This document shows positions 9,868-64,000 of a stretch of DNA of 64,000 bases, one piece after another. The stretch is from Clostridia bacterium (lineage in GTDB: Bacteria > Bacillota > Clostridia > Oscillospirales > CAG-272). Made by a program: the position numbers and the translations under genes. Below the pieces are notes generated by a model that searched no databases, had not been told where the DNA came from, and saw only the letters and a program-made list of their open reading frames with translations. Position 1 is the first letter of the stretch; each line of letters opens with the position of its first letter. The DNA lies in assembly GCA_017399145.1 (NCBI GenBank), contig JAFQEG010000011.1, positions 1 to 64,000 of the forward strand. Direction: 5' to 3'.

Positions 9868-9925
9868 AAAATCACTCCTTTCATAAATAAAGACGGAAAA
9901 TATAAAAGGTAGGTTACAGGTTGAG

Positions 9926-9957
9926 AAAAATATGGTCGATTATCGACCATATTTTTT
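9926..9957 (-). terminator. Terminator after the heparinase-like gene
   Basis: Long hairpin AAAAATATGGTCGA / TCGACCATATTTTT with a 3-nt loop and T/A tracts on both sides; it touches the stop codon of the minus-strand gene. Confidence 0.75.
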
Positions 9958-11629: not shown

Positions 11630-11662
11630 AATTAACCTCTTTGTTGTGTAGCTTGTACCTTA

Positions 11663-11691
11663 ATTTTAGCATAGAGTCAAAGGGTTTGCAA
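11663..11691 (-). promoter_or_regulatory. Promoter of the heparinase-like gene
   Basis: On the minus strand TTGCAA (11691-11686), 17-bp spacer ending in TGC, TAAAAT (11668-11663): an extended -10 promoter 34 bp before the start codon. Confidence 0.6.
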
Positions 11692-11701
11692 CAGAAAAAG
11701 G

Positions 11702-11733
11702 AAAAAGAGGCTTAAAATTTAAGCCTCTTTTTT
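11702..11733 (-). terminator. Terminator after rtcB
   Basis: Stem AAAAAGAGGCTTA / TAAGCCTCTTTTT around AAAT; it lies just beyond the rtcB stop codon on the minus strand and has T-rich sequence on both sides. Confidence 0.75.
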
Positions 11734-11751
11734 TGTGTTGCAACAACCCCG

Positions 11752-12963
11752 CTACTTACCAGATGCCTTGAAATTGTATACAGGCTTAATTACCTTTACA
11801 ATTTCAACGGAAGGGGTAATTTGCGAAACGATTGCGTCCATATCCTTGTATGCCATAGGGGACTCGTCAAGAGTACCGGGGCAGATACAGGTGGTATAGA
11901 TGCCTTCCATTTGCTTTTGGTATTCCTCAAGGGTTAGAGTTTCCTTTGCGGTGCTTCTTTTTAAGAGTCTACCTGCACCGTGAGGGGCAGAGTAGTTCCA
12001 ATTTTCGTTGCCCTTACCTAGACAGATAAGCGCACCGTCACGCATATTGATAGGGATTAAAAGCTTTTCACCATTCTTTGCAGATACGGAGCCCTTTCTT
12101 AAAATCATTGACTCTGTGTCGATATAGTTATGAATGGTAGTAAAGCGCTCTAGCTGAGGTAAGCCTAAAACGTTTATAATGGTGTCGGCAATTGCTTGTC
12201 TATTTAGAGTTGCAAACTGTTGTACAAGCTTCATGTCGTGAATGTACATATCAAAGAGTTCGCCCTCAAGACAGCAAAGCTCCTTGGAAATAGGCTTGTT
12301 TGCATAGTCCTTTTTCATTTTGTCAATGGTGTCTGCTATTTCGTTTTTGGACTTACCCTGTGCTAGCATATCCTTAGTTACCTTGTCGGCTAAGGATTTA
12401 GGGAAGGTGCGTTGCATTTCGTAGGCTTGGTTGATGTAATATTCAGCAACCTCCTTGCCTAAACGTCTACTACCCGAGTGGATAACTAGGTATTTGCAAT
12501 CATCCTCGTCCTTGTCGATTTCAATAAAGTGGTTGCCACCACCAAGAGTGCCTAAGCCGAATAGCGCCTTTTCGCCCTCGATTTTATCGTAGCAATAAAG
12601 CTTTGTTATGTCGATTTTGTCAGTGTATTTGTGGTATGTTTTTCTGTTTGAGTTGCCTGAGGGGATATTTCTTCTTATACAGTCGTCAAGCTTTTTAAAG
12701 TCAATATCTACCTTGCCAAGACATACAGTTTCCATGCCACAGCCGATATCAACGCCTACCATTGAGGGCGATACCTTGTCCTTAATTGTCATAGTTGTAC
12801 CGATGGTACAGCCCTTGCCTGAGTGTACGTCAGGCATAATTCTAATTTTTGTTTCCTTAAAAGCCTCATCGTTACACACGTTCAAGATTTGCTTGTAAGC
12901 ATCCTCGGCTAGCAAATCGGTGTAGCAGATAGCTTGGTTATATTTGCCGTAAACTTCTATCAT
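11752..12963 (-). CDS. rtcB: RtcB-family RNA ligase
   Basis: 403 residues, close to the shorter RtcB subgroup. Landmarks in order: IMPDVHSGKG and GVDIGCGM (metal-binding Asp/Cys region), GGGNHFIEI and HSGSRRLG (metal-binding His residues), and YSAPHGAGRLLKRS near residue 330, which contains the His that is guanylylated during catalysis. RtcB joins 2',3'-cyclic phosphate or 3'-phosphate ends to 5'-OH ends using GTP and Mn2+, repairing nicked RNA such as cleaved tRNA. The ribosome site AAGGAGATGATATACC is very strong. It follows the slipin gene on the same strand. No archease or RtcA is visible. Confidence 0.94.
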   Translation of the reverse strand: MIEVYGKYNQAICYTDLLAEDAYKQILNVCNDEAFKETKIRIMPDVHSGKGCTIGTTMTIKDKVSPSMVGVDIGCGMETVCLGKVDIDFKKLDDCIRRNIPSGNSNRKTYHKYTDKIDITKLYCYDKIEGEKALFGLGTLGGGNHFIEIDKDEDDCKYLVIHSGSRRLGKEVAEYYINQAYEMQRTFPKSLADKVTKDMLAQGKSKNEIADTIDKMKKDYANKPISKELCCLEGELFDMYIHDMKLVQQFATLNRQAIADTIINVLGLPQLERFTTIHNYIDTESMILRKGSVSAKNGEKLLIPINMRDGALICLGKGNENWNYSAPHGAGRLLKRSTAKETLTLEEYQKQMEGIYTTCICPGTLDESPMAYKDMDAIVSQITPSVEIVKVIKPVYNFKASGK

Positions 12964-49389: not shown

Positions 49390-51375
49390 ATGCTTAAGAT
49401 AGATAACAACGGACTTATTAGATTTTTTGATGGCGAGCTTGTAAGAATTGAGCCTTGGGGCAAAAACTCCTTACGTGTAAGGGCAACACCTATTGGCAGG
49501 CTTGACAATGAAGCAAGAGCCTTGCTTGACATAAACGAGGAAAAGGCAGAGATTGAAATTCTTGAAGATTGTGCCACTATTAAAAACGGAAACGCAAGGG
49601 CAGAAATAGACAAAAACGGAAAAATTACCTTCTACAATCAAAGGGGAGAAAAATTGCTTGAGGAAGCATTAAGGCTAAACCCATTAAAGACTCCTGCAAG
49701 ATTTTTTAAGGGTAACCATTTGGGAAAATATCAGCTTACTATGACCTTTGAGTCAAATCCAGAGGAAAAAATATTTGGAATGGGTCAGTATCAGCAAGAG
49801 CTTTTAAACCTAAAGGGTGCTGTTTTGGAGCTAGCACACAGAAATTCGCAGGCTAGCGTGCCCTTTTATTTATCTAGCCTTGGCTATGGCTTTCTTTGGA
49901 ATTTGCCAGCTATTGGCGAGGCTATTTTTGGCACTAACCTGACAAAATTTAAGGCAGAGTCAACTGACGTATTAGACTACTTAATAATAGTAGAGGACAC
50001 TCCTGCAAAAATAGTTGAGAGGTATATGGAGGCAGTAGGTAAGCCACCTAAAATGCCTGAGTACGCACTAGGGCTTTGGCAATCTAAGTTGCGTTATAGC
50101 ACTCAAGAGGAGCTAATGAGCGTTGCAAGGAAATATAAGGAGCTTGGTATTCCACTTTCCGTTATAGTTTGCGACTTTTTCCATTGGCCTCATCAAGGGG
50201 ATTATCGCTTTGACTATGATTATTTCCCAGACCCCCTTGCTATGACTAAGGAGCTTGCACAAATGGGCACAGAGCTTATGGTGTCCGTTTGGCCTACCGT
50301 TGAAAAGGGTGGCGAAAGCTACGAGGAAATGCTTGAGGGTGGTATGCTTATTAAGAATGACAGAGGCTCATTTATGCAAATGGATTGCGTACAGCCGGCT
50401 GTATTCTATGATGCGACTAACCCAGATGCAAGACAATACGTTTGGAATAAGATAAAGAAAAATTATTACGATAAGGGTATTCGCCTTTTCTGGCTTGATG
50501 AGGCTGAGCCTGAATATATGACCTATGATTTTGACAATCATAGATACTACAAGGGCCATTGTGCCGAGGTGGGAAATGTTTACCCCGTTGATTATCTAAA
50601 GGGCTTTTATGAGGGACTTATAGAGGCAGGGGAAAAGGAGCCTATTTGTCTTATTCGTTGTGCTTGGGCAGGTAGCGCAAAATATGGTGCTCTTGTTTGG
50701 AGTGGCGATATTATGCCAACCTTTGAGGCGTTAAGATGTCAAATTAGAGCCGGGCTTAATATGGCAATTGCTGGCATTCCTTGGTGGACTACCGATATTG
50801 GAGGCTTTGACGAGGGTGATCCTGACGACGAGGACTATCGTGAGCTTGTTGTAAGATGGTTTGAGTATGCAACCTTCTTGCCTGTCCTTCGTATGCACGG
50901 CTATCGTGCGCCATATATTCCTGCAAGGGAAGGAGCAACGGGTGCCGGTCAATGCTTTAGTGGTGGAGATAACGAGCTTTGGTCCTATGGCGAGGACAAT
51001 TTCCAAATAATGAAGGACTACGTTTTCCTAAGAGAAAGACTAAGACCTTATCTAAAGGAAATTATGGATGTAGCCCACAAGCAGGGTACACCACCTACAA
51101 GGCCACTATTTTATGATTTTCCAACCGACTTAAAATGTTGGGAAATTGAGGACCAATTTATGCTTGGTAACGACCTTTTAGTTTGTCCTGTATGCTATTT
51201 AGGAAAGCGACAAAGAGAGGTGTATTTACCAAGTGGAAGCTCTTGGATTGATGCATTCTCTGGCGAGGAAATTCAAGGGGGAGTGTCTATAATTGTTGAT
51301 GCACCTATTGAGAAAATACCTGTATTTATAAGAAAGGGTAGCGAGCTTACTACTGAGCTATTTAAGGGAGAGTAA
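49390..51375 (+). CDS. GH31 alpha-xylosidase-like glycosidase
   Basis: 661 residues, no signal peptide, so cytoplasmic. An N-terminal beta-sandwich (to about 200) precedes the (beta/alpha)8 barrel: YALGLWQSKLRYSTQEELMS, VIVCDFFHWPHQGDYRFDYD, and RLFWLDEAEPEYM with the nucleophile Asp, typical of YicI-like alpha-xylosidases, then LVWSGDIMPTFEAL and IGGFDEGDPDDEDYRELVVR. Such enzymes release alpha-xylose from xyloglucan oligosaccharides. The GH3 gene starts 1 bp after the stop codon. Free xylose would be used by XylA/XylB nearby. Confidence 0.92.
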   Translation: MLKIDNNGLIRFFDGELVRIEPWGKNSLRVRATPIGRLDNEARALLDINEEKAEIEILEDCATIKNGNARAEIDKNGKITFYNQRGEKLLEEALRLNPLKTPARFFKGNHLGKYQLTMTFESNPEEKIFGMGQYQQELLNLKGAVLELAHRNSQASVPFYLSSLGYGFLWNLPAIGEAIFGTNLTKFKAESTDVLDYLIIVEDTPAKIVERYMEAVGKPPKMPEYALGLWQSKLRYSTQEELMSVARKYKELGIPLSVIVCDFFHWPHQGDYRFDYDYFPDPLAMTKELAQMGTELMVSVWPTVEKGGESYEEMLEGGMLIKNDRGSFMQMDCVQPAVFYDATNPDARQYVWNKIKKNYYDKGIRLFWLDEAEPEYMTYDFDNHRYYKGHCAEVGNVYPVDYLKGFYEGLIEAGEKEPICLIRCAWAGSAKYGALVWSGDIMPTFEALRCQIRAGLNMAIAGIPWWTTDIGGFDEGDPDDEDYRELVVRWFEYATFLPVLRMHGYRAPYIPAREGATGAGQCFSGGDNELWSYGEDNFQIMKDYVFLRERLRPYLKEIMDVAHKQGTPPTRPLFYDFPTDLKCWEIEDQFMLGNDLLVCPVCYLGKRQREVYLPSGSSWIDAFSGEEIQGGVSIIVDAPIEKIPVFIRKGSELTTELFKGE

Positions 51376-51376
51376 T

Positions 51377-53485
51377 ATGGCAAATGTAAGAGAAAAATAC
51401 AAAAAGGAATTTGAGGACCGTGCAAGGGCGCTAGTGTCACAAATGACTCTTGAGGAAAAGGTTTCTCAAATGATAAACAAGACGCCTGAGATTGAGCATC
51501 TAGGCATTAAGGAATACGACTGGTGGAACGAGGCACTACACGGAGTTGCAAGGGCTGGAGTGGCTACTGTGTTTCCACAGGCTATTGCCCTTGGTGCTAC
51601 CTTTGATACAACTCTTGTTGAAAGAATTGCTGACGTAATTTCAACCGAGGCAAGAGCAAAATACAATGCCTCACAAAGAGTTAAGGACTATAAGGGCTAC
51701 AAGGGACTTACCTTCTGGTCTCCTAACGTAAATATTTTCCGCGACCCTCGTTGGGGCAGAGGTCACGAAACCTATGGAGAGGACCCATATTTGACCGCAA
51801 GAGTTGGCGTTGCATTTATAAACGGATTACAGGGCTACGACGAGAAATATCTAAAATCTGCCGGCTGTGCTAAGCACTTTGCAGTACACTCTGGTCCTGA
51901 GGGCATAAGAAGTAGCTTTAATGCTAAGGTTGGTCAAAGGGATTTGTGGGAAACCTATTTGCCTGCCTTTGAGGCTTGTGTTAAGGAAGCACAGGTTGAG
52001 GGCGTTATGGGTGCTTACAACAGAACAAACGACGAGCCCTGTTGTGGAAGTCCGACGCTCTTAAAGGGTATTTTAAGAGATAAGTGGGGCTTTGACGGTT
52101 ACGTTACCTCTGACTGTGGAGCTATTGCGTATTTTCACGATTATCACAAGGTGACAAATGAGCCTGTTGAATCGGTTAAGCTTGCAGTTGAAAACACCTG
52201 TGATTTAAACTGTGGCTGTATGTATCAGCATGCTGTCAATGCAGTAAAGAGCGGATTGCTTGACGAAAAATACGTTGACGAGTGTCTTGTTAGATTATTT
52301 ACAACCAGAATGAAGTTAGGCGAGTTTGACGAAAGCACTCCTTGGGACAATATTCCTTACTCAGTTGTTGCTTGTCCCGAGCACAGGGCTTTAGCACTTG
52401 AAAGCGCAAAAAAGAGCATTGTGCTTTTGAAAAATAATGGTGCTTTGCCTCTTGATAAGAAAAAAATTAAGTCTATTGGTGTAATTGGACCTAATGCAAA
52501 CAACCGAGTTGCACTTCAGGGTAACTATCACGGTACTGCCACAAGATACGTAACTGTCCTTGAGGGAATACAGGATTTTTGCGAAAAAGAGGGGATACGT
52601 GTCTATTTTTCAGACGGCTGTGACCTTATAAGACCTAGCGTTGAGTGGTACGAAAACGACCGACTTGACGAGGTAAGAGAGATTTGTCGTGAATGTGACG
52701 TTGTAATTGGTGTTTTTGGCCTTGACGAAACACTAGAGGGCGAGGAAATGGCTGGTGGTCTTGGTATGCAGGGCGACAAGCCGGATTTAAAATTCCCTGG
52801 TATTCAAAACCAAATAATGAAGGAAATTTCAAGCAATGCAAAGAAGTCAATTCTTGTGTCGCTAACAGGTAGCGCTATGGATTTAAGTCAGCAGGACAAG
52901 GATTACGATGCTATAATTCAGGGCTGGTATCCCGGCGAAAAGGGTGGTGAGGCAATCGCTAAGGCTATTTTTGGCGAATACTCCTTTGAGGGTAAGCTAC
53001 CTATTACCTTCTATAAAAGCACTGAGGACGTGCCTAATTTTCTCGATTACTCTATGAAGGGTCGTACATATAGATATATTGAAACCGAGCCACTTTACCC
53101 CTTTGGCTATGGCCTTTCCTATAACGACTACGTGGTTGAAGCTAAGCTAGAGGGCAATATGGAAAATGGCTTTGAAATTGATGCAACTGTTGAAAATAAG
53201 GGTGCTTATGACGGTAGCGAGGTTGTACAGGTGTACATCAAAGCATTAAGAGAAAATGCACCTAATTTTAGCTTAAAGGCCTTTGAAAGAGTAGAATTGA
53301 AGGCGAGGGAGAAAAAAGCTGTTAAGATACGTCTTAACTCTGAGGCTTTTGCCTTGTACAATGAGGCGGGCAAGTTAGAATTAACTAAGGGAGTATATGA
53401 GGTTTACGTAGGAAACAGACAACCCGACTCTCGCACTAGTCAGCTTTTGCCAACGGAAATTAAGAAATTCACTATTGAAATCTAA
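51377..53485 (+). CDS. GH3 beta-xylosidase/beta-glucosidase-like
   Basis: 702 residues, no signal peptide. Landmarks: EYDWWNEALHGVARAG (common in beta-xylosidases of GH3), FWSPNVNIFRDPRWGRGHET, KHFAVHSGPEG, and GFDGYVTSDCGAI with the nucleophile Asp. The second alpha/beta domain (AKKSIVLLKNNGALPL) and a C-terminal fibronectin-like domain (about 590-690) follow. It probably removes beta-xylose or glucose from imported oligosaccharides together with the GH31 enzyme, with which it forms an operon. Specificity between xylosidase and glucosidase is inferred. Confidence 0.92.
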   Translation: MANVREKYKKEFEDRARALVSQMTLEEKVSQMINKTPEIEHLGIKEYDWWNEALHGVARAGVATVFPQAIALGATFDTTLVERIADVISTEARAKYNASQRVKDYKGYKGLTFWSPNVNIFRDPRWGRGHETYGEDPYLTARVGVAFINGLQGYDEKYLKSAGCAKHFAVHSGPEGIRSSFNAKVGQRDLWETYLPAFEACVKEAQVEGVMGAYNRTNDEPCCGSPTLLKGILRDKWGFDGYVTSDCGAIAYFHDYHKVTNEPVESVKLAVENTCDLNCGCMYQHAVNAVKSGLLDEKYVDECLVRLFTTRMKLGEFDESTPWDNIPYSVVACPEHRALALESAKKSIVLLKNNGALPLDKKKIKSIGVIGPNANNRVALQGNYHGTATRYVTVLEGIQDFCEKEGIRVYFSDGCDLIRPSVEWYENDRLDEVREICRECDVVIGVFGLDETLEGEEMAGGLGMQGDKPDLKFPGIQNQIMKEISSNAKKSILVSLTGSAMDLSQQDKDYDAIIQGWYPGEKGGEAIAKAIFGEYSFEGKLPITFYKSTEDVPNFLDYSMKGRTYRYIETEPLYPFGYGLSYNDYVVEAKLEGNMENGFEIDATVENKGAYDGSEVVQVYIKALRENAPNFSLKAFERVELKAREKKAVKIRLNSEAFALYNEAGKLELTKGVYEVYVGNRQPDSRTSQLLPTEIKKFTIEI

Positions 53486-53489
53486 AAAG

Positions 53490-53526
53490 TAAAAAGGAAA
53501 ATTCCAAAACGGAATTTTCCTTTTTC
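53490..53526 (+). terminator. Terminator of the GH31-GH3 operon
   Basis: Long stem AAAAAGGAAAATTCC / GGAATTTTCCTTTTT with an AAAAC loop. Confidence 0.85.
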
Positions 53527-53534
53527 TTTAACTG

Positions 53535-54110
53535 AATTAACGGAGTATTTCCAATCAATCAACAGCTCCCGGGGTTTGTACACACAGGTCAAAATATACC
53601 ATTTACGAACATAAAAGTTAAGCTAAAACGAACTGGCGACCCGTGCGGGAATTGACACCGGAGTTTGTACACACAGGTCAAAATATACCATTTACGAACA
53701 TAAAAGTTAAGCTAAAACGAACTGGCGAGCTGTGCGGAAATTAGTCCCGGGGTTTGTACACACAGGTCAAAATATACCATTTACGAACATAAAGGTTAAG
53801 CTAAAATGAACTGGTGATCCGTGTGGGAATTGACACCGGAGTTTGTACAAAGGGTAGCTTAACGGAGTATTTCCAATCAATCAACAGCTCCCGGGGTTTG
53901 TACACACATGTCAAAATATACCATTTGCGAACATAAAGGTTAAGCTAAAAATGAACTGGTGAGCCGTGTGGGAATTAGTCCCGGGGTTTGTACACACATG
54001 TCAAAATATACCATTTGCGAACATAAAAGTTAAGCTAAAACGAACTGGCGACCCGTGCGGAAATTGACATCGGGGTTTGTACACACAGGTCGCTTAGCGG
54101 AGTGTTTCCA
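53535..54110. repeat. Array of 89-90-bp tandem repeats in two blocks
   Basis: GTTTGTACACACA-type unit starts occur at 53574, 53663, 53752 and 53841 (89-bp period), then after a short break at 53896, 53986 and 54075 (90 and 89). Each block is introduced by ACGGAGTATTTCCAATCAATC, and a variant (GCGGAGTGTTTCCAATCAAG) closes the array near 54097. Whole units are near-identical, including CAAAATATACCATTT and ACGAACATAAAAGTTAAGC, with alternating ends (TTGACACCGG or TTAGTCCCGG). No open reading frame spans it. Confidence 0.9.
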
Positions 54111-54138
54111 ATCAAGCAAGCATTCGAAATGTAAGCAA

Positions 54139-54174
54139 AAAAGAAGCCCATGGCTTTTTGCCAAGGGCTTCTTA
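54139..54174 (-). terminator. Terminator after the XRE regulator
   Basis: Stem AAGAAGCCCATGGC / CCAAGGGCTTCTT with an internal mismatch and TTTTTG loop, touching the stop codon of the minus-strand gene. Confidence 0.7.
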
Positions 54175-54384
54175 TTTGTAACGCTCAGGATTACTTGTTT
54201 CGCCTAGAAGGTAATCAATGCTAGTGTTGTAAAACCTAGCAAGCTTAATTAGAATGTCGGTTGGAATGTCGTTTTCGCCAGTTTCATACTTGGAGTAGCC
54301 TGTTTGGGACATACCAAGCATTTTTGCGATTTGTGTTTGGGTAAGGTCCTTGTCTTCGCGTAAATCACGGATACGCTTATACAT
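54172..54384 (-). CDS. XRE-family helix-turn-helix regulator
   Basis: 70 residues, almost entirely a single HTH_3 domain: IRDLREDKDLTQTQIAKMLG then MSQTGYSKYETGENDIPTDI and LARFYNTSIDYLLGET. Such stand-alone Cro/CI-like proteins act as local repressors or transition-state regulators. ATG 54384 is chosen because AGAAAGGA then lies about ten bases upstream; an ATG three codons earlier would be inside that site. The upstream region has a GTACAA direct repeat that may be its own operator. Confidence 0.9.
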   Translation of the reverse strand: MYKRIRDLREDKDLTQTQIAKMLGMSQTGYSKYETGENDIPTDILIKLARFYNTSIDYLLGETSNPERYK

Positions 54385-54434
54385 AAAAAACATCCTTTCT
54401 AAATTTTATAAGGCTTTAGACTTGCGAAAAATCT

Positions 54435-54456
54435 AAGTACAACTCTATTGTACAAT
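54435..54456. promoter_or_regulatory. Candidate XRE operator
   Basis: AAGTACAACT (54435-54444) and the perfect palindrome ATTGTACAAT (54447-54456) share GTACAA at a 13-bp period, about 50-70 bp upstream of the XRE start. Together with the AT-rich flanks this suits an autoregulatory site. The rest of 54460-54710 shows nothing I recognise. Confidence 0.35.
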
Positions 54457-54713
54457 ATGAAATTATGCGTTTTTTGTTTTTAACCTAAAAAATCCTAAGC
54501 TTTTTTGAAATTTCGCATAACGTGTTGATTAAATCAACATAAAATGGCAAAGATGAGCTGCGGTGGGGGACGAGTGGGCAAAAAACCGTAAAATTTCCCC
54601 AAAAAGACCCTTCATAATGATGTTCTAACCCTATTATAGCACCTACGGTGGAATTTTGCAAGCAAAACAAGACAGAGTGTAGAATTAAAGACTATTTTAT
54701 AGTATGTAAAAGA

Positions 54714-54742
54714 TTGACATAAAATAAACCTTGTGATAAAAT
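54714..54742 (+). promoter_or_regulatory. Promoter of the GH92 gene
   Basis: Perfect TTGACA (54714-54719), 17-bp spacer ending in TGA, TAAAAT (54737-54742): extended -10. Confidence 0.7.
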
Positions 54743-54804
54743 AGATATGAAAAACGTGTAAATTTAAGACACAGGGTAAAGAAAAATAGGATTAAGGTGA
54801 GAAT

Positions 54805-56829
54805 ATGGAATATTTAAGCTACGTCAATACAAAAATGGGGACAAATAACAATCAACGATTTTCAACGGGAAACGCACTTCCTTTGTGTCAGCTACCCTTT
54901 GGTATGGTGTCCTTTTGCCCTCAAACGGAAAGGCAAGAGGATAAAAAGGGTTGGTTTTATAATCCTAATTTGCCATTTATGGAGGGAATTAGGCTTACTC
55001 ATCAGCCTAGCCCCTGGATTGGGGACTATGCAACGATTTTGTTTATGCCTCAATGCGACGTAATAGGAAACACCCCAGGGAGTGTCTGGTCAAGCTTTTT
55101 GGAAAATGAGTGTGTTTTAAGACCTGATTATATCAAGGTAAGGCTACTAAGACCTAAATGCACCCTTGAGGTAGTGCCTAGTCAAAGATGTGGTGTATTT
55201 AAGCTAGATTTTGAAAGAGATATGACCCCTTATTTTTCTATGCTTACCACTGAGGGAAAAATAGAGGTGGTTGGCAATAATTATGGTCACGACGTTGTTA
55301 CTATTCAACTAGAGGGCACAGGGCAAGCCGACGCACCCGGCTTTAAGGGGTATTTAGTAGTTAGGTGTAAGGACTTTGATTCAAGCAAGCTAACAGTCGT
55401 TGAAAAAGAGGGCAAAAAAGCAATTCACATTCCACTATTTAAGAAAAATGTTGAGGTACGTGTAGGACTTTCCTATTTAAGCTTCGATCAAGCCCTTTTA
55501 AATATGGAAAGGGAAATTGACAAAAAATCACTTGAGGAATTGAAAAAAGAGGCTAGTGAGGCTTGGGAGGAAAAGTTATCAAGAATAAAAATAGAGGCAG
55601 ACGAAAATACCTTAAAAACCTTTTATTCTTGCATGTATCGTGTATTCCTATTTCCACACAAGGCATACGAAATTGACGAAAGTGGCCGTCCTGCCCACTA
55701 TGCGCCTAAGCAAATGACTAAGAAGATGGGTGTTAGATACACGGGTAGTGGCTTTTGGGATACATATAGGACTCAATTTCCATTGCTTTCTATGATTGCC
55801 AAGGAAGAGTATAAGGAAATATTAAAGGGCTTTATAGTAGATTACAGGGACGGTGGCTGGTTGCCTAGATGGAGTGCAATGGGTGAGGTTGGCTGTATGC
55901 CTAGCACACTTATCGAGCCGATTATTGCCGATGGCGCTATTAAGGGCCTTTTAGATGATGAGGATTTATACGACGGATTTTTAGGTATGGCTAAAAACGT
56001 TTTGGAAAGGTCCTTAGAGCCTATTTATGGCAGACGAGGAATGGACGATTTTGTAAAATACGGATACGTCCCCTCGGATTTATACAGAGAAAGCGTTAAT
56101 TTGACTGTTGATTTCTCTTATGGTGATTATTGTGTCGGCACGGTGGCAGGCATTATTCTTAATAAGTATGCACAGCTAAACGAGGATAGTGACCAAAGAG
56201 ATAAAATCAATATGAATGCCTTGCTTCTTGCAAGAGATTTGAATAAGGAATGCCTAAGGAGGGCGACCTCATACAGAAGGCTATATGACGAGAAAAGTGG
56301 CTTTATTGTGCCTAGGGATAGCGAGGGCAACTTTAAAGTGGACTTCGATCCCTATGAGTGGAGTGGCGATTATACGGAAAGCTGTGCTTGGCAGGGACTG
56401 TTTTCCCCGGTCCACGACCTTGAGGGCTTAGCTAAGCTAATGGGTGGCGAGGACAAGCTTCTTAAAAGGCTTGACGACCTAGTTAATGCAGAGGCAGACT
56501 TTAGAGTAAGCGGATATGGTGGGGAAATTCACGAAATGACGGAGTTGGCAAGGGGACAGCTAGGACAGGTTGCAATATCTAATCAGCCAAGCTTTCACAT
56601 TCCATTTATCTATGCTTACTTTAAGCAAGCTGTAAAAACAAGACAATTAGTAAAGGATATTACTAAAAGAATGTTTTCCTGGGATAAGGGCTTCCCAGGG
56701 GACGAGGACAACGGTAGCATGGCATCCTGGTACGTGCTTGCTAGCATAGGAAGATACCCAATTTGCCCAGGCAAGGATAAGCTTGTTAAGTACAAGCCAC
56801 TTGTAAAAATTATCGAGATTAAGGAATAA
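54805..56829 (+). CDS. GH92 alpha-mannosidase-like protein
   Basis: 674 residues, no signal peptide. It starts YVNTKMGTNNNQRFSTGNAL, the usual GH92 beginning, then RYTGSGFWDTYRTQFPLLSM, GGWLPRWSAMGEVGCM, SYGDYCVGTVAGIILNKYA, and the catalytic-region AWQGLFSPVHDLEGLAKLMG, ISNQPSFHIPFIYAYFKQA and GDEDNGSMASWYVLASIGRY. GH92 enzymes are calcium-dependent exo-alpha-mannosidases, mainly alpha-1,2. Lack of an export signal suggests action on imported mannose oligosaccharides. Ribosome site AAGGTGAG. Single-gene unit with strong promoter and terminator. Confidence 0.93.
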   Translation: MEYLSYVNTKMGTNNNQRFSTGNALPLCQLPFGMVSFCPQTERQEDKKGWFYNPNLPFMEGIRLTHQPSPWIGDYATILFMPQCDVIGNTPGSVWSSFLENECVLRPDYIKVRLLRPKCTLEVVPSQRCGVFKLDFERDMTPYFSMLTTEGKIEVVGNNYGHDVVTIQLEGTGQADAPGFKGYLVVRCKDFDSSKLTVVEKEGKKAIHIPLFKKNVEVRVGLSYLSFDQALLNMEREIDKKSLEELKKEASEAWEEKLSRIKIEADENTLKTFYSCMYRVFLFPHKAYEIDESGRPAHYAPKQMTKKMGVRYTGSGFWDTYRTQFPLLSMIAKEEYKEILKGFIVDYRDGGWLPRWSAMGEVGCMPSTLIEPIIADGAIKGLLDDEDLYDGFLGMAKNVLERSLEPIYGRRGMDDFVKYGYVPSDLYRESVNLTVDFSYGDYCVGTVAGIILNKYAQLNEDSDQRDKINMNALLLARDLNKECLRRATSYRRLYDEKSGFIVPRDSEGNFKVDFDPYEWSGDYTESCAWQGLFSPVHDLEGLAKLMGGEDKLLKRLDDLVNAEADFRVSGYGGEIHEMTELARGQLGQVAISNQPSFHIPFIYAYFKQAVKTRQLVKDITKRMFSWDKGFPGDEDNGSMASWYVLASIGRYPICPGKDKLVKYKPLVKIIEIKE

Positions 56830-57259: not shown

Positions 57260-60200
57260 ATGGATATAAAAACCTTTATCAAGGACGCAAACGAAGAATA
57301 TGTCAAAATGAAAAGTGACCTTGAGGTTGAAAGAAAGACCCTTTCCGAGGCACTCAAGAAGGCAGAGGACGCTCTAAACAATGAAAGAGAGCGCTTTAGG
57401 GCTGAGGAAAAGGAGCTTCTTAGCGTTTTAGATGCTACCAAAAAGGAAAGAATCGGCGAGATTGAAAGAATTGCTACCGAAAAAATGGATATTCTTAAAG
57501 CCGAAAAGGATAAGATAATAAATAGCGAGGCCTCTCGTAGGCAAAACGTTGAAAATGCCTACAAGGATAGATTTGAGGGACTTGAATCTGAGCATAATGA
57601 AAGACTAGAGGAGCTTAAGAGAAGATACGAAACTCGCAAAAATCTCGCTAAGCGAGAGTACGAGGAATTAAGACAGGACCTAGAAAGCTCATCGGCTGTG
57701 CACGGGGATATGGACGCTATGCTTGCAAGTCAGCAAAATCGTGACCTGCTAGAGAAAATCGATGAGATTGAGGACAGAAACGTTTTGCTTCGTGCATCTA
57801 TCAAGGAGGAGCTTGAAAGCTATAGCGAAAAGCTAACTGAGTATTTAAATCTTAAGGATTTCACCTTTGAGCCACCCTCGAAAAAGGACCTTTTAGAAAG
57901 AGCAAATAGGTATTACGAAAGCTTAGATGAGCTAAACGTATACAAGGCTAAGCTTCAAAAATCTCAGGGCTGTGATGCCCTTGTTGAGTACAACAAGGCA
58001 ACCCTTGAGGAGGCGAAGAAGGAATTTGAAAAGAGCCTTCAGGAAATCGACGAATGGTATTTGCAGGAGCTTGAGGGCGAAAATCGCAAATACACAAAGG
58101 AAAAGAATATCCTAGAAAATCAAAAGAACAATTCTGATGTTGAAAAGCCTGAAATTGCCGAAAGAATCGCTCAAATTGACAAGGAGCTAAAGGAAATTGA
58201 GGAATCTCTAATTGCTGAAAGTGGCAAGATTATGGAGGACTTGTCAAAAAGCGAGGGCGCTAAGACCAGAATGTTTAACATGATTAAGGCAGAGGAGCTA
58301 AGAGTACAGGAGGAAGGACTTCAAAAGGCTAAGGAAAGGCTTGATGAGTTTGTTAAGAGTCAAGATAAAAGGCTTGAGGACCTACTAAACAGAATCAAGA
58401 AGGATTTACAAGAGATAATTGGTAGTGGCAAAGACTTTTCCGTAGGTCAAATAAGAGACGGAAGGGTACGGACCGCCTTGCCGAAGTCAATTGCAATAGG
58501 TAGATGTGGCACAACTCTTGCACAATGTGAGCTTGTGGAAAGGCTTTACGGTAAGAGTGGGTTAGAAATACCTGCTACCGTAAGCGTTGACGTTTTAGGT
58601 GGCGAGGCATTAATCTTTACCTCGGACAACGAGGAATATCTTGACAGAATTATGGGTGGTATTACTCTTAAATTCTTAGAGGAATTTCCCAAGGAAAGCC
58701 TAGGGGTTAGAATTATTTCCTCTGAAAGAGAAATATTTAACTCAATTGCTAGTGGAATAGCAGAGAATGAAAAATCAACAATTATCAATAAGGACCCACA
58801 CCCAGCCCTTACCTTTGCTGATGCAGAGTCAAACAGAATTGCATCTAAGCTAGGCGGGGAGATAAAAAATGCCTTCGACCTTTACGAAAAAGAAAAGGGC
58901 AGAGTCATCACTCTTGTTGTTATTCGTGATGGCATTGAGGAAATCCTAGGGGATAAGGAAATGCTAGCGATTCTTAGAAAGCTTCTTTCTGAAAGAGGAA
59001 GAAATTCCGGAATTAGATTTATAATTGCTTGCAAGAATACCGAGGAATTAAAGGACCTTTACGAGAGTGGACTTTCTATTTCTATTAAGGGCGAGGACGT
59101 GCTTTATGGCGAGGAAAAAATTGACATTTGCACTATTCCAAATCAAGATATATCATTCTTTATAAAGGGTGTTTTTTCCGATATAGCATCTCTTAACGAG
59201 GGCTTTGCAGGTGGCGATATTCCTCTTGCTAGCTATTGTGCTAGCCTTGACGAGTTAGACAAGACAGAAAAGGAAGCTAAAAAAAACCAAGTCAATAAAG
59301 CCTTTTCAATAGATGGAAGAATTACCTATGAGGATTTGGGCTTTAACAGTCCTTTTGAGGAAATGGGCGAGGAGTTTGACTTGCCTATTGGCGCAACAGA
59401 AAATGGAATTGCCACAATTAGCTTTGATTGCGGAAATAAGGGTGGACAGAATACAGGTGGACTAGTTGTTGGTGCAACTGCTACCGGAAAATCCTCCCTT
59501 CTTAATAGTCTTGTTGTAGAGGGCTGTAAGAAATATTCCCCTAAGGACCTTGAATTGTGGCTTTTGGACTTTAAAAAAGAGGGCGCAGTAAACGGATATG
59601 TCGACTCAAAAATCCCTCATATTAAGGTGCTTAAGCAGGGTGCTAACGAGGACGATATTTATTATATCCTAAGCAACCTATGTGTGGAAATTGAGAGGAG
59701 AAGGGACCTCTTTGAAGCAACAGGGGCAGGGATAAGACAAGAGAAATTTAAAAACGTATTTGAATATAATGAATTTGTAAGGAAAAATGATGGCTACGGC
59801 GACACTCTACCTAGAATTGTATTGATTGTCGATGAGGTGCAGGAGCTGTTTCAAAATAAGGAAAACAGCCTAATTGCAGAAATTATGACAATGCTAGCGA
59901 CAATTACGGTAAGAGGTCGATGTATGGGTATCCATACGGTTATGATTGGAAACGGGATATGTCCCGATGATTTTGCTTTTAGAAATGCTTACATTAATCA
60001 CATTAAGTGTAAGGTAAGCTTTAGAATGAGTGAGGGTGCATTGAGAGAAGCACAGCTAGGCAAGGAATTTGAGGAAATTAGTCAAGAAATTTCCACCTTA
60101 CAGCCTGGTCAAATGTACGTTTCGCTTGGAAACAACATAGTTAAAGCAAAGACTCCTTATGTTAATAGTCAGTGCCTTGAGGAATATCTTGAAGAGATAC

Positions 60201-61048
60201 GCAAGAATTTTAAGAATGTAGAAAATAGCAAGAATGACTACTCGTGGTTTATGAAAAATCCAATTTATTCACAAGAGGGCACCTCCCTTGTGATTGGAGA
60301 ATGCTTTTACACAGGTAAGCCTGTATATGCAACCTTCAATGATAAAAGGTCGTCACTGGCTGTATTAAGTAAAAATGAGGACGTTCAGTCCCGTATTCTT
60401 TCCTCTATTTTAATAGGGGTAAGTGAGGTAAAGGGGGCAAGGGCGCTTTGCTGTAATGGTGCTAGCATATACGAGGCACTATTTCATAAAACTATAAAGG
60501 AAAGGGCAGGACTAAGCGTAAGAGGCTACGAGAAAACTGATTTTGCCGAGATGATTAAGGACGCATATAGCGAGCTTGTAAGCAGACAAAACAGTAATCA
60601 GAAAAATGATGCACCTTTATTTGTAATAATCAATGGCTTATCAAGGCTTACTCAATTAGACGGAAGAATATCTAATAACGAGGGACCTAGATTTGCCTCA
60701 TCCTCAATCGATAATATTCTTGGAAATAAAATGGGCTTTGTTGTTAGTCAACCACAGGACCATAATATTAGTGTAAGACAGGCTTGTCAGGACTTGATTA
60801 CACAGGGCACAGAGGTTGGTATTTACGTTGTTATCTCTGCGGATAGCATAGAAAATTGCACTGAGCTTGTTTCAAAATGTCAGGACGTGGTTGCTACAAA
60901 TGATATTTTAGAGGATTTTGACCTTGAGGGCTGTGGACTTGGCAGACTTGTGCCATTTCTTTCAAAAATAGAAAAGGATGAACACGAAAGCGTGATTTTT
61001 ACACGTGGCAATAGCATCGACAAAATAAAACCTATCATCTTTGGATAA
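57260..61048 (+). CDS. Coiled-coil FtsK/SpoIIIE-type ATPase (type VII secretion EssC-like)
   Basis: 1262 residues. Residues 1 to about 400 are charged coiled coil (YVKMKSDLEVERKTLSEALK), with no membrane helix. Three FtsK/HerA-like modules appear to follow: about 420-690, degenerate; about 700-1000, active, with Walker A GATATGKSS (738-746) and Walker B RIVLIVDEVQEL (Asp 858, Glu 859); and about 1020-1262, degenerate (LAVLSKNEDVQSRI where a P-loop would be, then PLFVIINGLSRL). One active plus inert modules recalls EssC/EccC of type VII secretion. GAAGGAGGCATTTAGG fixes the start. It leads an operon of related and small helical proteins. Secretion is inferred; a DNA or protein translocase with another role is possible. 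Confidence 0.78.
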   Translation: MDIKTFIKDANEEYVKMKSDLEVERKTLSEALKKAEDALNNERERFRAEEKELLSVLDATKKERIGEIERIATEKMDILKAEKDKIINSEASRRQNVENAYKDRFEGLESEHNERLEELKRRYETRKNLAKREYEELRQDLESSSAVHGDMDAMLASQQNRDLLEKIDEIEDRNVLLRASIKEELESYSEKLTEYLNLKDFTFEPPSKKDLLERANRYYESLDELNVYKAKLQKSQGCDALVEYNKATLEEAKKEFEKSLQEIDEWYLQELEGENRKYTKEKNILENQKNNSDVEKPEIAERIAQIDKELKEIEESLIAESGKIMEDLSKSEGAKTRMFNMIKAEELRVQEEGLQKAKERLDEFVKSQDKRLEDLLNRIKKDLQEIIGSGKDFSVGQIRDGRVRTALPKSIAIGRCGTTLAQCELVERLYGKSGLEIPATVSVDVLGGEALIFTSDNEEYLDRIMGGITLKFLEEFPKESLGVRIISSEREIFNSIASGIAENEKSTIINKDPHPALTFADAESNRIASKLGGEIKNAFDLYEKEKGRVITLVVIRDGIEEILGDKEMLAILRKLLSERGRNSGIRFIIACKNTEELKDLYESGLSISIKGEDVLYGEEKIDICTIPNQDISFFIKGVFSDIASLNEGFAGGDIPLASYCASLDELDKTEKEAKKNQVNKAFSIDGRITYEDLGFNSPFEEMGEEFDLPIGATENGIATISFDCGNKGGQNTGGLVVGATATGKSSLLNSLVVEGCKKYSPKDLELWLLDFKKEGAVNGYVDSKIPHIKVLKQGANEDDIYYILSNLCVEIERRRDLFEATGAGIRQEKFKNVFEYNEFVRKNDGYGDTLPRIVLIVDEVQELFQNKENSLIAEIMTMLATITVRGRCMGIHTVMIGNGICPDDFAFRNAYINHIKCKVSFRMSEGALREAQLGKEFEEISQEISTLQPGQMYVSLGNNIVKAKTPYVNSQCLEEYLEEIRKNFKNVENSKNDYSWFMKNPIYSQEGTSLVIGECFYTGKPVYATFNDKRSSLAVLSKNEDVQSRILSSILIGVSEVKGARALCCNGASIYEALFHKTIKERAGLSVRGYEKTDFAEMIKDAYSELVSRQNSNQKNDAPLFVIINGLSRLTQLDGRISNNEGPRFASSSIDNILGNKMGFVVSQPQDHNISVRQACQDLITQGTEVGIYVVISADSIENCTELVSKCQDVVATNDILEDFDLEGCGLGRLVPFLSKIEKDEHESVIFTRGNSIDKIKPIIFG

Positions 61049-61082
61049 TCGTTAGATTTAAAAGGGATTGGTATGATAATTA

Positions 61083-62027
61083 ATGGAAAACAATAATTTT
61101 AATATGAATAACAATGATTTAAAGGACTTGGGCTTTTTTGACTTTGTGCCAAAGGGTAAGAATCAGTATACATCAATACCCTTCGGCTTTAAGGAAAATG
61201 GAATTGTAGCCCTTGACCTAGATGAATGGAAAAATGGTGGAATGCTTACGTTAGCAGAGGACATAGATGAGATAGAAGCATTGCAAGAGGCTATTCTGTT
61301 AATGGGCTGTATGAAGTATTCACCAGATGACCTAAGGGTTATGGCTATTAGTAAAAATAGCTCCCTTGCAAGTAATTTGAAGAAATGGGACCTTCCTCAC
61401 ACTATAAGCACTATTTGTGTTGGGAATTACTATGACTTTGCAATGGCGCTTGAAAATCTTTTGAATTTTATTAAAAGACGAGACCAAAAGCTACAAATAC
61501 TAGGAAAAATAAATAACATTCAGGTGGAAAATATCTTTGAGTTTAATAAAATCGCATTAGAAGACTCAAAAAATTCAATAGCGCCAATGGAAAGAGTAAT
61601 GGTCTTTATTGACGACATATACGACATTATTGATACCGCTAGCAAAGAAAGTGATAAAGACGAAATTATGGAAAGGCTAGCCCAGGTTATAATAAGCGGT
61701 AAGGATGTAGGCGTTTACCTAGTGGCAGGCGCAACACCTAGGGCACAGCTAGACTATAAAATAACTAAGTCGGTTGCCCCTTATGTAAGTACTCTTGGCA
61801 CCTTTAGGTTGGAAAATGGACTTGAGGCAGAGTTAAGCCTAGGTGGGGACCTTGAGGGTCACACAGAGGATATAGAGGGATTAGCCAAGGGTCAGCTTTT
61901 TTTGGTGGCTAGCTGTGAAAACGGTAAGAAAAAAAGCCTAGTTAAATTAGCAAAATATGACACCTTGCAAAGAGAGGAATACGTAAGCGCAATAAAGGAC
62001 AATTACTTCTTCTTTCAAAATAATTAA
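61083..62027 (+). CDS. Degenerate FtsK/SpoIIIE-like ATPase-fold protein 1
   Basis: 314 residues resembling a single FtsK module without catalytic residues: the expected P-loop position reads GGMLTLAEDIDEIEALQEAI, followed by LMGCMKYSPDDLRVMAISKN (equivalent to the KYSPKDLELWLLDF segment of the larger protein), RRDQKLQILGKINNIQVENI and a Walker-B-like RVMVFIDDIYDII. It is likely a structural subunit. In-frame stops immediately upstream force ATG 61083; the AAAGGGA site is 16 bases away and better suits a short overlapping ATG reading frame at 61073, so initiation may be weak or coupled. Confidence 0.7.
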   Translation: MENNNFNMNNNDLKDLGFFDFVPKGKNQYTSIPFGFKENGIVALDLDEWKNGGMLTLAEDIDEIEALQEAILLMGCMKYSPDDLRVMAISKNSSLASNLKKWDLPHTISTICVGNYYDFAMALENLLNFIKRRDQKLQILGKINNIQVENIFEFNKIALEDSKNSIAPMERVMVFIDDIYDIIDTASKESDKDEIMERLAQVIISGKDVGVYLVAGATPRAQLDYKITKSVAPYVSTLGTFRLENGLEAELSLGGDLEGHTEDIEGLAKGQLFLVASCENGKKKSLVKLAKYDTLQREEYVSAIKDNYFFFQNN

Positions 62028-62038
62028 GGGGGATGGGT

Positions 62039-63022
62039 ATGAGCTTTTTTAGTAGAAAAAGAGAAAAATCACAACTCGACGCTAAAAGACTTGAGGGTGT
62101 AGGCACAAACGAAATAAATCGTGATGGATACTGTCCGCTAGTGTGCAAAATACCGGTTGGTCTTTGCGAAAACGAGATTTACAATTTGGACTTTAGTAGC
62201 GAAAGAGACGCTTGTGCGTCTTATATGATAACAGGAAACAGGGATTCAATAAAGGGACTATTAGACGCAATAATTATAAATGGATCCTTGAAATATACAC
62301 CAGGTGAGGTTTCCTTTAGGCTTTATGATACAGAGTCTTATGGAATGCTAGACCCATATGAAAATGCAAGACTTCCACATATCACAAGAATAGGGTCACA
62401 TATAGGCGAAAACGAGGCTGTTCACGAGCTATTTAGACTAGCTGACGTAATAAAAAAGCGTGGCGAGCTTTTTAAGTCTCTTGGTGAAAAATGTGGGGTA
62501 GAAATCAATAATATTTGTGAATATAATTCCTATGCTAAGACCCAAGAAAAGGGCACCTTCAAGCATAAGAAGAGAATTATAGCTGTACTTAACGGAATTA
62601 GAAAAATTTTAAATTCTCCTCAAGCAGACGAAAGATATGTAAAGCAGGTATGCTATCTTGTTGAGAATATAGCAAAAAGAGGGTCAGCCCTAGGTGTGCA
62701 TTTGATTTTGACAAGCACAGCCTTTTCGAATAGCGAGATTGACAAGCTACTACAAAGCACCTTTGTACAAAGGGCACAGGGAAGAGTGGTCCTTGCGCAA
62801 GAAAAGAGTGAGGCTAAAAGGTTAGACTTTGGTAAGGCCTTTGCTAAGAGAATAAAGGAAATAGCAAGGTTAGGTAAGGGACAAGGCCTTGTGACAGTTG
62901 ACGGAAAACGGGTAAGCCTTGTTGATATAGCAACCCTTACACCACTAGAGGAATATATTGAAATGGTAAGCGACTCTGTCTTCTTCTATGAAGAAAAAAC
63001 CGAGAAGCTAAGTAAAAAATAG
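62039..63022 (+). CDS. Degenerate FtsK/SpoIIIE-like ATPase-fold protein 2
   Basis: 327 residues, again one FtsK-like module: YMITGNRDSIKGLLDAIIIN in place of the P-loop, GSLKYTPGEVSFRLYDTESY, VIKKRGELFKSLGEKCGVEI, and KKRIIAVLNGIRKIL as a Walker-B relic without the acidic pair. ALGVHLILTSTAFSNSEIDK matches the sensor-like segment of FtsK domains. GGGGGAT five bases before ATG 62039 supports that start over an ATG two codons earlier. Ends 10 bp before the next gene. Probably assembles with the active ATPase. Confidence 0.7.
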   Translation: MSFFSRKREKSQLDAKRLEGVGTNEINRDGYCPLVCKIPVGLCENEIYNLDFSSERDACASYMITGNRDSIKGLLDAIIINGSLKYTPGEVSFRLYDTESYGMLDPYENARLPHITRIGSHIGENEAVHELFRLADVIKKRGELFKSLGEKCGVEINNICEYNSYAKTQEKGTFKHKKRIIAVLNGIRKILNSPQADERYVKQVCYLVENIAKRGSALGVHLILTSTAFSNSEIDKLLQSTFVQRAQGRVVLAQEKSEAKRLDFGKAFAKRIKEIARLGKGQGLVTVDGKRVSLVDIATLTPLEEYIEMVSDSVFFYEEKTEKLSKK

Positions 63023-63032
63023 GGAAAAGAAA

Positions 63033-63278
63033 ATGACTAAGAATGGCAAGCAAGAGGCGATAGCCTTGATAAACGCACTGAGGACCTGCAAGGATTCGGC
63101 AGATGACGGAATAAAGAGTGCTTATTACAAAAGCGAGGATTTGCTTTGGGAGGATAAGCAACGTGCTGTTTTTGATAGAAATATTGAGCAGGTAATTAGT
63201 ATTGCGATAAATGGAATAAACCTACTTGACAGATATGCCAATGAAATGGAATTGATGGTTAAGGAGGGTGACAAATGA
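63033..63278 (+). CDS. Small helical protein 1 of the FtsK-like operon
   Basis: 81 residues, all-helical and acidic, no signal peptide: QEAIALINALRTCKDSADDG, then YYKSEDLLWEDKQRAVFDRN and a closing helix NGINLLDRYANEMELMVKEG. Size and helix-turn-helix hairpin layout recall WXG100 proteins; there is a LLWED turn but no strict WxG. It overlaps the next gene by 4 bp. Candidate substrate, chaperone or partner of the ATPases; function not assigned. Confidence 0.65.
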   Translation: MTKNGKQEAIALINALRTCKDSADDGIKSAYYKSEDLLWEDKQRAVFDRNIEQVISIAINGINLLDRYANEMELMVKEGDK

Positions 63279-63556
63279 GCGAGGCTGATAGAATAGATAT
63301 GGACGTGTCAGTTGAGGATTTGGCTTCTGTAAGAGAGCACATAAGCCTTTGCTCAAGAGCATTTTCCACAGCTACTCAAAAAATAGAGGAATATTCAAAA
63401 AACGGAAACGAAAAATATAGCATGTCCAAGGACACTAACGAAAAATCAATGGAGATTTTAGGTGCTACTGCAATGGGAATAAACGGCTTAGCTATACATT
63501 TAAGCAAGCTTGAGGATTACGTTAAGGAATACTTAAGCTGTAAGTATGAGGGGTAG
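63275..63556 (+). CDS. Small helical protein 2 (WXG100-sized)
   Basis: 93 residues, all helix: VEDLASVREHISLCSRAFST, a loop with NGNEKYSMSKDTNEKS, then ATAMGINGLAIHLSKLEDYV ending KEYLSCKYEG. The length equals that of ESAT-6/WXG100 proteins but the central Trp-x-Gly is absent. ATGA overlap with the previous gene shows tight coupling in the operon. Confidence 0.65.
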   Translation: MSEADRIDMDVSVEDLASVREHISLCSRAFSTATQKIEEYSKNGNEKYSMSKDTNEKSMEILGATAMGINGLAIHLSKLEDYVKEYLSCKYEG

Positions 63557-63560
63557 GTGC

Positions 63561-63842
63561 ATGACCTTGAAGAAAATGAAGAAAACCTCCTTAGAGCTTC
63601 AATTAATTGAGGCAAGCGAAGCCTTTGAAGCACTAAAGCAAGCCTATTCCACAGACTCCTGGAGTGATTCGGTTAAGGAATCCTATGGAAGATTGCTTGA
63701 CCAACAAGAGATAGTGCTTGAAAAATTAAACGACTATACCGAGGCTAAAAGAGATCTTGTGCAGGACGTAGACCTAGAGGATGTTGACAAGCTAATCCAG
63801 TTAGCAAAGGGCGTTTGCGATCAGGCAGGTGACATTAAATGA
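63561..63842 (+). CDS. Small helical protein 3 (WXG-like turn)
   Basis: 93 residues: ELQLIEASEAFEALKQAYST, a turn DSWSDSVKESYG (Trp-Ser-Asp, reminiscent of WxG), then helix RLLDQQEIVLEKLNDYTEAK and QLAKGVCDQAGDIK. No signal peptide. ATG 63561 follows GAGGGGTAGGTGC; an in-frame ATG five codons earlier lies in the preceding gene. Overlaps the next start by 4 bp. Confidence 0.65.
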   Translation: MTLKKMKKTSLELQLIEASEAFEALKQAYSTDSWSDSVKESYGRLLDQQEIVLEKLNDYTEAKRDLVQDVDLEDVDKLIQLAKGVCDQAGDIK

Positions 63843-64000
63843 GTAAAAGAAATAATCGTGCCTGTGTTAGCCTAGTTGCAATAGGAAGATTTTACAGTAT
63901 GCTTTTAGCCTACAAGAGTGCCCTTGAGGGGGTCCTTCGTGAGGTAGGCGTAAGGGAAGAATACCTAGGTCAAATAGAAAAGGACAAAAAAGCACTAGAA
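63839..64000 (+). CDS. Operon continuation, partial protein
   Basis: Only the first 54 codons lie in the window: MSKRNNRACVSLVAIGRFYS, then MLLAYKSALEGVLREVGVRE and EYLGQIEKDKKALE. It looks helical, beginning in an ATGA overlap with the previous gene, so the FtsK-like operon continues beyond the window. No family can be assigned from this piece. Confidence 0.6.
   Translation, partial: MSKRNNRACVSLVAIGRFYSMLLAYKSALEGVLREVGVREEYLGQIEKDKKALE

Follow-up and report, generated by a model that had tools for sequence, protein, structure and literature searches.

EssC-like ATPases that carry an N-terminal coiled coil and no membrane part, that are active only in the second of their domains (D2) and that have WXG100 proteins as neighbours have already been described in work on CoCoNuT systems, and stand-alone operons of such ATPases are reported there as well (PMC11090510, which cites Anantharaman 2012). 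In the type VII secretion systems (T7SS), from T7SSa to T7SSj, the ATPase is membrane-bound wherever its location is stated (PMC11217815). Hsp70 together with GrpE is found as an operon module in GTPase-centred conflict systems, GAP1-N2 (PMC7159879).

We describe here an operon in a 64,000-nucleotide stretch of Clostridia bacterium DNA (GCA_017399145.1, contig JAFQEG010000011.1, our contig C7, positions 1 to 64,000; hereafter the window) that combines an ATPase of this coiled-coil type with genes for additional inert FtsK modules, small WXG100-sized proteins, chaperones and HslV-like proteins. The source genome measures 1.83 Mb and is 76% complete. The initial annotation ended the feature at 64000; the contig continues to position 74962, and the operon runs on to about 71466. 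It comprises 15 genes, all on the forward strand, beginning at 57260, and is followed after 2 bases by the start of a GH39 glycosidase gene. Its intergenic gaps range from -11 to 34 bases, except for 96 bases before the first HslV-like gene at its preferred ATG. We read the locus as a stand-alone, soluble coiled-coil EssC-like FtsK ATPase of the CoCoNuT/Ter (TerY-P) kind to which a chaperone-peptidase module has been added, forming an intracellular machine, and give this reading a probability of roughly 0.5.

The lead ATPase and its inert companions

The lead gene (57260..61048, + strand) encodes an FtsK-type ATPase of 1262 residues (PF01580, E 1.7e-16). Domain comparisons together with coiled-coil and hydropathy tests give it a coiled coil at about residues 1-400, a degenerate D1 (about 404-660), an active-looking D2 (about 690-1000) and a degenerate D3 (about 1002-1262). 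The first 400 residues are 44% charged, contain three prolines and have a heptad signal of 0.957, against a maximum of 0.790 among 500 shuffles, and they have no relation to the FtsK domain in profile comparison. The highest 19-residue hydropathy of the protein is 1.32, below the threshold of 1.6, and by the same measure none of 16 operon proteins has a membrane segment. These results bear out the claim of the initial annotation that the lead has a soluble coiled coil of about 400 residues and no membrane part. The sole Walker A motif, GATATGKS at 738, lies in D2, where the Walker B motif is IVLIVDEVQ. D1 aligns with D2 in hhalign at 96.5% (score 72.5 vs at most 19.2 in 60 shuffles) and D3 at 95.1% (62.4 vs at most 18.7 in 60 shuffles). 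Judged by these profiles, D1 and D3 are real but degenerate FtsK domains, in line with the one intact and two inert modules that had been proposed for this protein.

Among solved structures, a profile built from 12 leads and modules matched EccC and YukB chains best (structure 4nh0 being an EccC). They score above FtsK, although the solved DNA translocase FtsK is also a strong match (E 8.7e-23). The proposed kinship with EssC/EccC, in a protein unlike those of T7SSa and T7SSb, stands. In an unrooted tree of 51 rows, with EssC rows labelled by size and by possession of two domains, EssC D1, EssC D2 and SpoIIIE each formed one cluster of 10 rows passing our support threshold, and all 17 coiled-coil FtsK leads, the window's D2 included, fell outside these three clusters; the branch setting EssC together with SpoIIIE apart from the other rows had support 94/89, just below that threshold. 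The window lead groups with its counterparts in two genomes of the same genus (G022 and G026), with a paralog on contig C43 of its own genome and with both separate inert modules (95/88), and next with the leads of loci L030, L031 and L032 (96/88). The set of 17 was reached after dropping L120 and L121, which are SpoIIIE-like with membrane windows; L087, L114 and L115, each with one window above the hydropathy threshold that by position lies inside a folded domain, were kept. Loci L027, L114, L115 and L032 stop at contig ends, and absences there are soft. The window lead has a coiled coil of more than 200 residues without a membrane helix and three ATPase domains with Walker motifs in D2 only, and it probably belongs to the coiled-coil EssC-like FtsK group.

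Full-length orthologs of the lead occur in 3 of 29 genus genomes, and its dN/dS (nonsynonymous to synonymous substitution ratio) against the G022 ortholog is 0.17, a rough value at a dS above 1. Named records with an ortholog are two Clostridia metagenome-assembled genomes from roe deer gut; distant ATPase matches were found in two records of a plasmid collection and one of a phage collection. A phage origin was considered and rejected: the viral scan gave one weak match to D2, in a large contig. The PADLOC model mad8 matches both the window lead (E 4.7e-9) and, at E 1.9e-16, the C43 paralog, and may connect these ATPases to a further defence system. Other PADLOC matches were weak or to coiled coils.

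Two further genes encode single FtsK modules, as previously annotated, and neither product has a Walker A motif. Inert module 1 (61083..62027, + strand, 314 aa) matches the lead profile at E 5.4e-30, a match read past its stop, and has Asp-Asp at the Walker B place. We found no ortholog of it in the G022 or G026 locus, and in the tree it sits with the lead D2 (86/74) on a very long branch, so that its placement is unsure. Inert module 2 (62033..63022, + strand, 329 aa; E 2.8e-25 against the lead profile) has lost both Walker motifs, as has its ortholog in G022. Its dN/dS against that ortholog is 0.19, again rough at a dS above 1, and by this measure the module is kept by purifying selection. 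Decay of the inert genes was rejected as an explanation: the reading frames are intact, and dN/dS is low for inert module 2 and for three of the HslV-like genes described below. Another related locus, L029, has a separate single-module FtsK gene with intact Walker motifs. Because this module groups with its own lead (100/98), separate FtsK modules would have arisen at least twice, and the tree suggests more than one origin for them.

Small proteins, chaperones and HslV-like proteins

Three small genes follow, with gaps of 10, -4 and -11 bases before them and -4 before the next gene. The first (63033..63278, + strand, 81 aa) carries a WED motif and is WXG100-like by size and motif place, with no Pfam match; the second (63275..63556, + strand, 93 aa) has a strong ribosome site and no tryptophan motif; the third (63546..63842, + strand) has a WSD motif and measures 98 aa from its first ATG. 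This ATG overlaps the preceding gene, and an internal ATG at 63561 has a better ribosome site and is the likely start (93 aa), so the annotated gene may be five codons too long. All three proteins lack proline (the third counted from 63561). WxD occurs in two of the three, at the place of the WxG of WXG100 proteins, and WxG in none. The initial description of three coupled genes of WXG100 size with no strict WxG is therefore accurate.

The Pfam WXG100 model matches none of the window's three small proteins. Among the seven in this genome's two coiled-coil FtsK loci, only the 87-aa protein on C43 reaches the model, below cut-off (E 2.6e-5); matches above cut-off occur elsewhere, for example in L086, G005, G002 and G009. 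Scanning residues 25-62 of proteins no longer than 450 aa in the 17 coiled-coil FtsK clusters gave 12 W-x-D/G motifs. After removal of two genes, one for a PP2C in L086 and one PurA-like in L119, all ten remaining cases were WxD, distributed over 5 of the 17 loci. The scan missed two plasmid proteins, with WQD in L086 and WKD in L087. A strict WxD rule is countered by L031, where a cluster apart from the ATPase has one WSG beside WYD and WDD. In two loci with a membrane EssC the scan gave three WxG cases, two of which were dropped as unrelated genes, and it missed a WQG protein.

The next gene (63839..65026, + strand; the window ends at 64000) encodes a 395-aa protein that resembles a coiled coil at its N-terminus and ends in a C39-like cysteine peptidase domain (PF13529, E 9.4e-5, 23.4 bits vs a cut-off of 24). 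C39-type domains are present in 4 of the 17 loci, with invariant Cys and His: the call lies above the Pfam cut-off for L029 and below it for the window locus (L005) and L116, and L114 was placed by its likeness to L029 (E 4e-14), with no Pfam match. A PDB search with the C39 alignment matched designed TIM barrels alone, which we took as noise. A 147-aa protein (contig positions 65038-65481, + strand) and a 223-aa coiled-coil protein (65492-66163, + strand) come next.

Of special interest are the genes that follow. A 444-aa protein (66182-67516, + strand) aligns with one GrpE profile in hhalign at 71%, with a score of 36.3, where 200 shuffles reached 24.4 at most, and is probably a GrpE-like exchange factor. 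Its middle is an acidic Pro/Asp/Glu/Val/Thr repeat, the length of which is very different in this genome (G000), G022 and G026. The adjacent gene (67545-69101, + strand) encodes an Hsp70 of 518 aa (PF00012, E 5.9e-33) with intact nucleotide motifs, which we take to serve phosphate and adenosine contacts; from its length and match range it seems to have no helical lid. It is 91% identical to its G022 ortholog and 81% to that of G026, compared with 68% and 44% for the ATPase. A further protein alignment, A6, had no PDB match and found one of 394 order genomes, our own; the listing of that sample does not show G022 and G026, which are carriers as well.

The operon closes with four HslV-like genes, a to d (69198-71466, + strand). 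As a group they match true HslV (1m4y) at E 2.1e-9, with homology across the whole domain and a score below the NCBIfam cut-off. The nucleophile of HslV is a threonine. At the start indicated by its ribosome site, HslV-like a begins with Met followed by Ser; this Ser and the equivalents of Asp17 and Lys33, presumably with the roles of nucleophile and catalytic partners at proteasome-type positions, are invariant in all four active-type copies. Copies b to d lack the Ser, and copy c retains the Asp. Against G022, b to d have dN/dS of 0.13-0.18 (rough, with dS above 1) and on this evidence are under purifying selection; for copy a, saturation of the synonymous sites precluded a ratio. In a phylum scan of 329 genomes, our own included, 117 matched at E up to 1e-6, mostly proteins of HslV size, and the best other match scored 48.5 bits vs 306 for the genome's own copy. 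At the level of the order, 3 of 394 genomes (own included) carry the HslV-like genes, and 3 of 246 at that of the family. No operon protein matched HslU, a search confined to the operon.

The initial annotation had pointed to the genes beyond 64000 as a possible source of membrane components. By hydropathy there are none, and the coiled-coil protein with its C39-like domain, the chaperone and the HslV-like genes stand there instead. It had also named a complete known system downstream as an outcome that would count against it; none was found in the operon. The other such outcome it named was folds unlike FtsK, and here the profile comparisons favour FtsK domains. Pfam scans of the operon proteins returned no VWA, kinase or PP2C match. 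Upstream, at 49390-56829, lie genes that by eye resemble glycoside hydrolases, and at the downstream end the GH39 gene (71469-72788, Pfam) follows the operon, as it does in all three orthologous loci.

Orthologous and related loci

The G022 locus contains the ATPase, inert module 2, the 223-aa coiled-coil protein, the GrpE-like protein, Hsp70, four HslV-like genes and GH39. That of G026 (L028) contains the ATPase, a shorter coiled-coil protein, the GrpE-like protein, Hsp70 and GH39. The five genes common to all three loci are thus those for the ATPase, a coiled-coil protein, the GrpE-like protein, Hsp70 and GH39, the first four in the same order, and the hairpin-sized proteins and C39 are present in only one of the three.

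More distant loci carry parts of the same set. L115, from another family, encodes an FtsK protein, a helical protein of 85 aa, Hsp70 and a true GrpE (PF01025, E 4.6e-18); it is a looser relative, as no in-frame coiled coil precedes its 822-aa FtsK reading frame. In G351 and G363, which represent two other genera of the same family, HslV-like genes are followed by genes for a kinase, two VWA proteins and a PP2C (L112, 5134-9957; L113, 8998-13676), a TerY-P-like arrangement; neither genome is among those listed with a coiled-coil FtsK match. In L116, genes for FtsK, small proteins and a C39-like protein stand in a row with genes resembling those of that kinase, VWA and PP2C set. The two matched plasmid records hold a VWA/WXG100/FtsK/CARF/VWA/PP2C/kinase locus and a TerD locus, in agreement with the contexts described for CoCoNuT (PMC11090510). 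By gene content, L115, L112/L113 and L116 appear to tie the window's parts to Ter/CoCoNuT systems.

The same genome has a second coiled-coil FtsK locus, L006 (contig C43, 4048-13437). It encodes a 1050-aa ATPase (9225-12377), four small proteins (83-95 aa), a coiled-coil protein of 459 aa that contains a hydrophobic segment, and a membrane protein bearing InlB-type repeats; an integrase gene lies directly upstream. L085 (MT836827.1, 584-9636), on a human gut scaffold deposited as phage, encodes by eye an E1/ThiF-like protein, a coiled-coil FtsK ATPase, a protein in which a hairpin-like region with WND is joined to a HELGH metallopeptidase-like domain, and a serine recombinase-like protein. L029 (1-14762), besides its Walker-intact separate module, encodes very long repeat proteins and a C39-like peptidase to which a WDD region is fused. 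In L030, L031 and L032, coiled-coil FtsK genes lie near proteins that share repeat regions, several of which in L031 and L032 start with a zinc-ribbon-like CxxC pattern (by eye).

Interpretation and comparison with known systems

We tentatively propose a mechanism in which motor, chaperone and peptidase act together. The ATPase would assemble into a ring in the cytosol, with inert modules capping catalytic positions or taking their place. Its FtsK modules would recognise the WxD proteins and the helical N-terminus of the effector, as EssC does WXG100 proteins, while Hsp70 with the GrpE-like protein would load or remodel clients and the HslV-like proteins would build a mixed chamber with one subunit type cutting. 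The whole would be an intracellular conflict or quality-control machine without a secretion channel. Purifying selection acts on inert module 2 and HslV-like b to d, the four inert copies open to this test, and for this reason the sequences suggest mixed rings. A stricter version, in which clients would pass from Hsp70 and the GrpE-like protein through a mixed FtsK ring into a mixed proteasome-type chamber of one cutting and three structural subunits, so that a type VII-related FtsK ring would be the motor of a cytosolic degradation machine, we hold to be rather improbable.

The locus might also be a reduced type VII-like secretion system, with WxD and C39-like proteins exported through some membrane channel, Hsp70 keeping substrates unfolded and the HslV-like proteins clearing those not secreted. 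The order of hairpin-sized proteins and then a coiled-coil protein ending in an enzyme domain is reminiscent of LXG loci, and effectors vary at other coiled-coil FtsK loci, with a zincin-like domain in L085 and ParB-like ones in L087 and L117 (motifs by eye). L086 may add a restriction endonuclease (REase)-like effector, assigned by analogy with the CoCoNuT paper and with no Pfam match; the authors of that paper favour secretion as well, by a different mechanism (PMC11090510). The absence of membrane windows from all 16 operon proteins tells against export, as does the failure of the EssB and YukD models to match any of 29 genus genomes (the source genome being 76% complete, and the YukD result weak, since the model missed a gene in L034 that is ubiquitin-like by eye); besides, the hairpin-sized proteins and the effector are missing from two of the three orthologous loci. 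We consider secretion unlikely. Less likely still is an FtsK/HerA-type machine for translocating or processing DNA, in which case the remaining genes would be passengers. It would suit the FtsK_SpoIIIE domain and the strong match to solved FtsK, and nucleic acids are the targets of the conflict systems in which related ATPases occur (PMC11090510), but EccC and YukB chains outscore FtsK, D2 lies outside the SpoIIIE cluster, a Pfam scan found no gamma DNA-reading domain and the operon partners are chaperone- and peptidase-like. Equally improbable is a chance neighbourhood, in which a coiled-coil FtsK cassette would have come to lie beside HslV-like genes and a stress operon of the Hsp70/GrpE-like type with no relation to it. 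Gene content does differ among loci, and integrase or recombinase genes adjoin L006, L116 (by similarity to L006) and L085 (by eye). Against chance stand the conserved order of ATPase, coiled-coil protein, GrpE-like and Hsp70 genes in all three orthologous loci, the close spacing of the operon and the recurrence of Hsp70 and GrpE with an FtsK gene in L115.

Several observations weigh against an intracellular machine built on a CoCoNuT/Ter-type ATPase with a chaperone-peptidase module. The G026 locus lacks the HslV-like genes, both inert modules, the hairpin-sized proteins and C39, so none of these is essential. The operon form with HslV-like genes is known from two genomes only, and the Hsp70 form from three genomes of one genus plus L115, with its FtsK reading frame devoid of a coiled coil. 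Co-transcription is inferred from gene spacing. The 444-aa protein has no match to the Pfam GrpE model PF01025, and adding the L115 GrpE to the GrpE profile lowers its match to 58.5%, which is still above every control. With the Asp kept in HslV-like c, the label of incompetence rests on Ser loss. The tree separates the window's group (10 rows) from the plasmid relatives L086 and L087 (96/88) and gives no exclusive clade, and membership in the coiled-coil EssC-like group therefore rests on architecture and context. The membrane protein of L006 has surface-type repeats, and other relatives have repeat proteins nearby, an arrangement that would suit export.

AAA+ unfoldases are the motors that feed the self-compartmentalising proteases known to date. 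If the stricter version of our proposal is true, an FtsK/HerA-type motor would drive a proteasome-type peptidase in their place. One operon that joins an FtsK-type motor to Hsp70, HslV-like proteins and a GrpE-like protein presents a different pairing, which is directly testable. It also bears on the role of soluble EssC-like ATPases beside WXG100-like proteins, should these ATPases be unable to span a membrane, and sets of one active and several inert members occur here in two unrelated enzyme families.

A literature search that covered titles, the beginnings of abstracts and term counts, mostly for top-ranked matches and with subscription papers and preprints largely outside its reach, found no work joining FtsK, Hsp70/GrpE and HslV-like genes, and term counts among top matches gave none with TerY and HslV together. 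From the FtsK/SpoIIIE DNA translocases the lead differs in having no membrane helices and in its place outside the SpoIIIE cluster. With T7SS the locus shares homologous FtsK modules and WXG100-sized small proteins; unlike there, the ATPase is not membrane-bound and the motif is WxD rather than WxG (PMC11217815). The lead has one Walker A motif, against two in each of two EssC-size proteins tested. HslV and proteasome-type Ntn hydrolases are related in sequence to the window's HslV-like proteins, one of which has the catalytic-type residues; the locus departs from HslV in its Ser nucleophile, in three paralogs without it, in having no HslU match in the operon and in its FtsK-type ATPase. The Hsp70/GrpE module is common to the window and GAP1-N2, with an FtsK-type ATPase here and a GTPase there (PMC7159879). 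The closest likeness is to the EssC-like ATPases of CoCoNuT Type III-A and stand-alone loci: a coiled coil replaces the FHA domain and membrane helices, D2 is the active one of three domains, the partners are WXG100-sized and an effector-like protein joins a coiled coil to an enzyme domain (PMC11090510). Specific to the window in this comparison are the two extra inert FtsK genes, the Hsp70/GrpE-like and HslV-like genes and a C39-like domain where CoCoNuT has an REase-like effector; the VWA/TerY-P flanks, optional in the CoCoNuT/Ter group, were not matched in the window's operon. The initial annotation had suggested a new translocase or assembly. Coiled-coil, D2-only ATPases with WXG100 partners were already described (PMC11090510), and the novelty lies chiefly in the chaperone and HslV-like partners and, to a lesser degree, in the separate inert genes.

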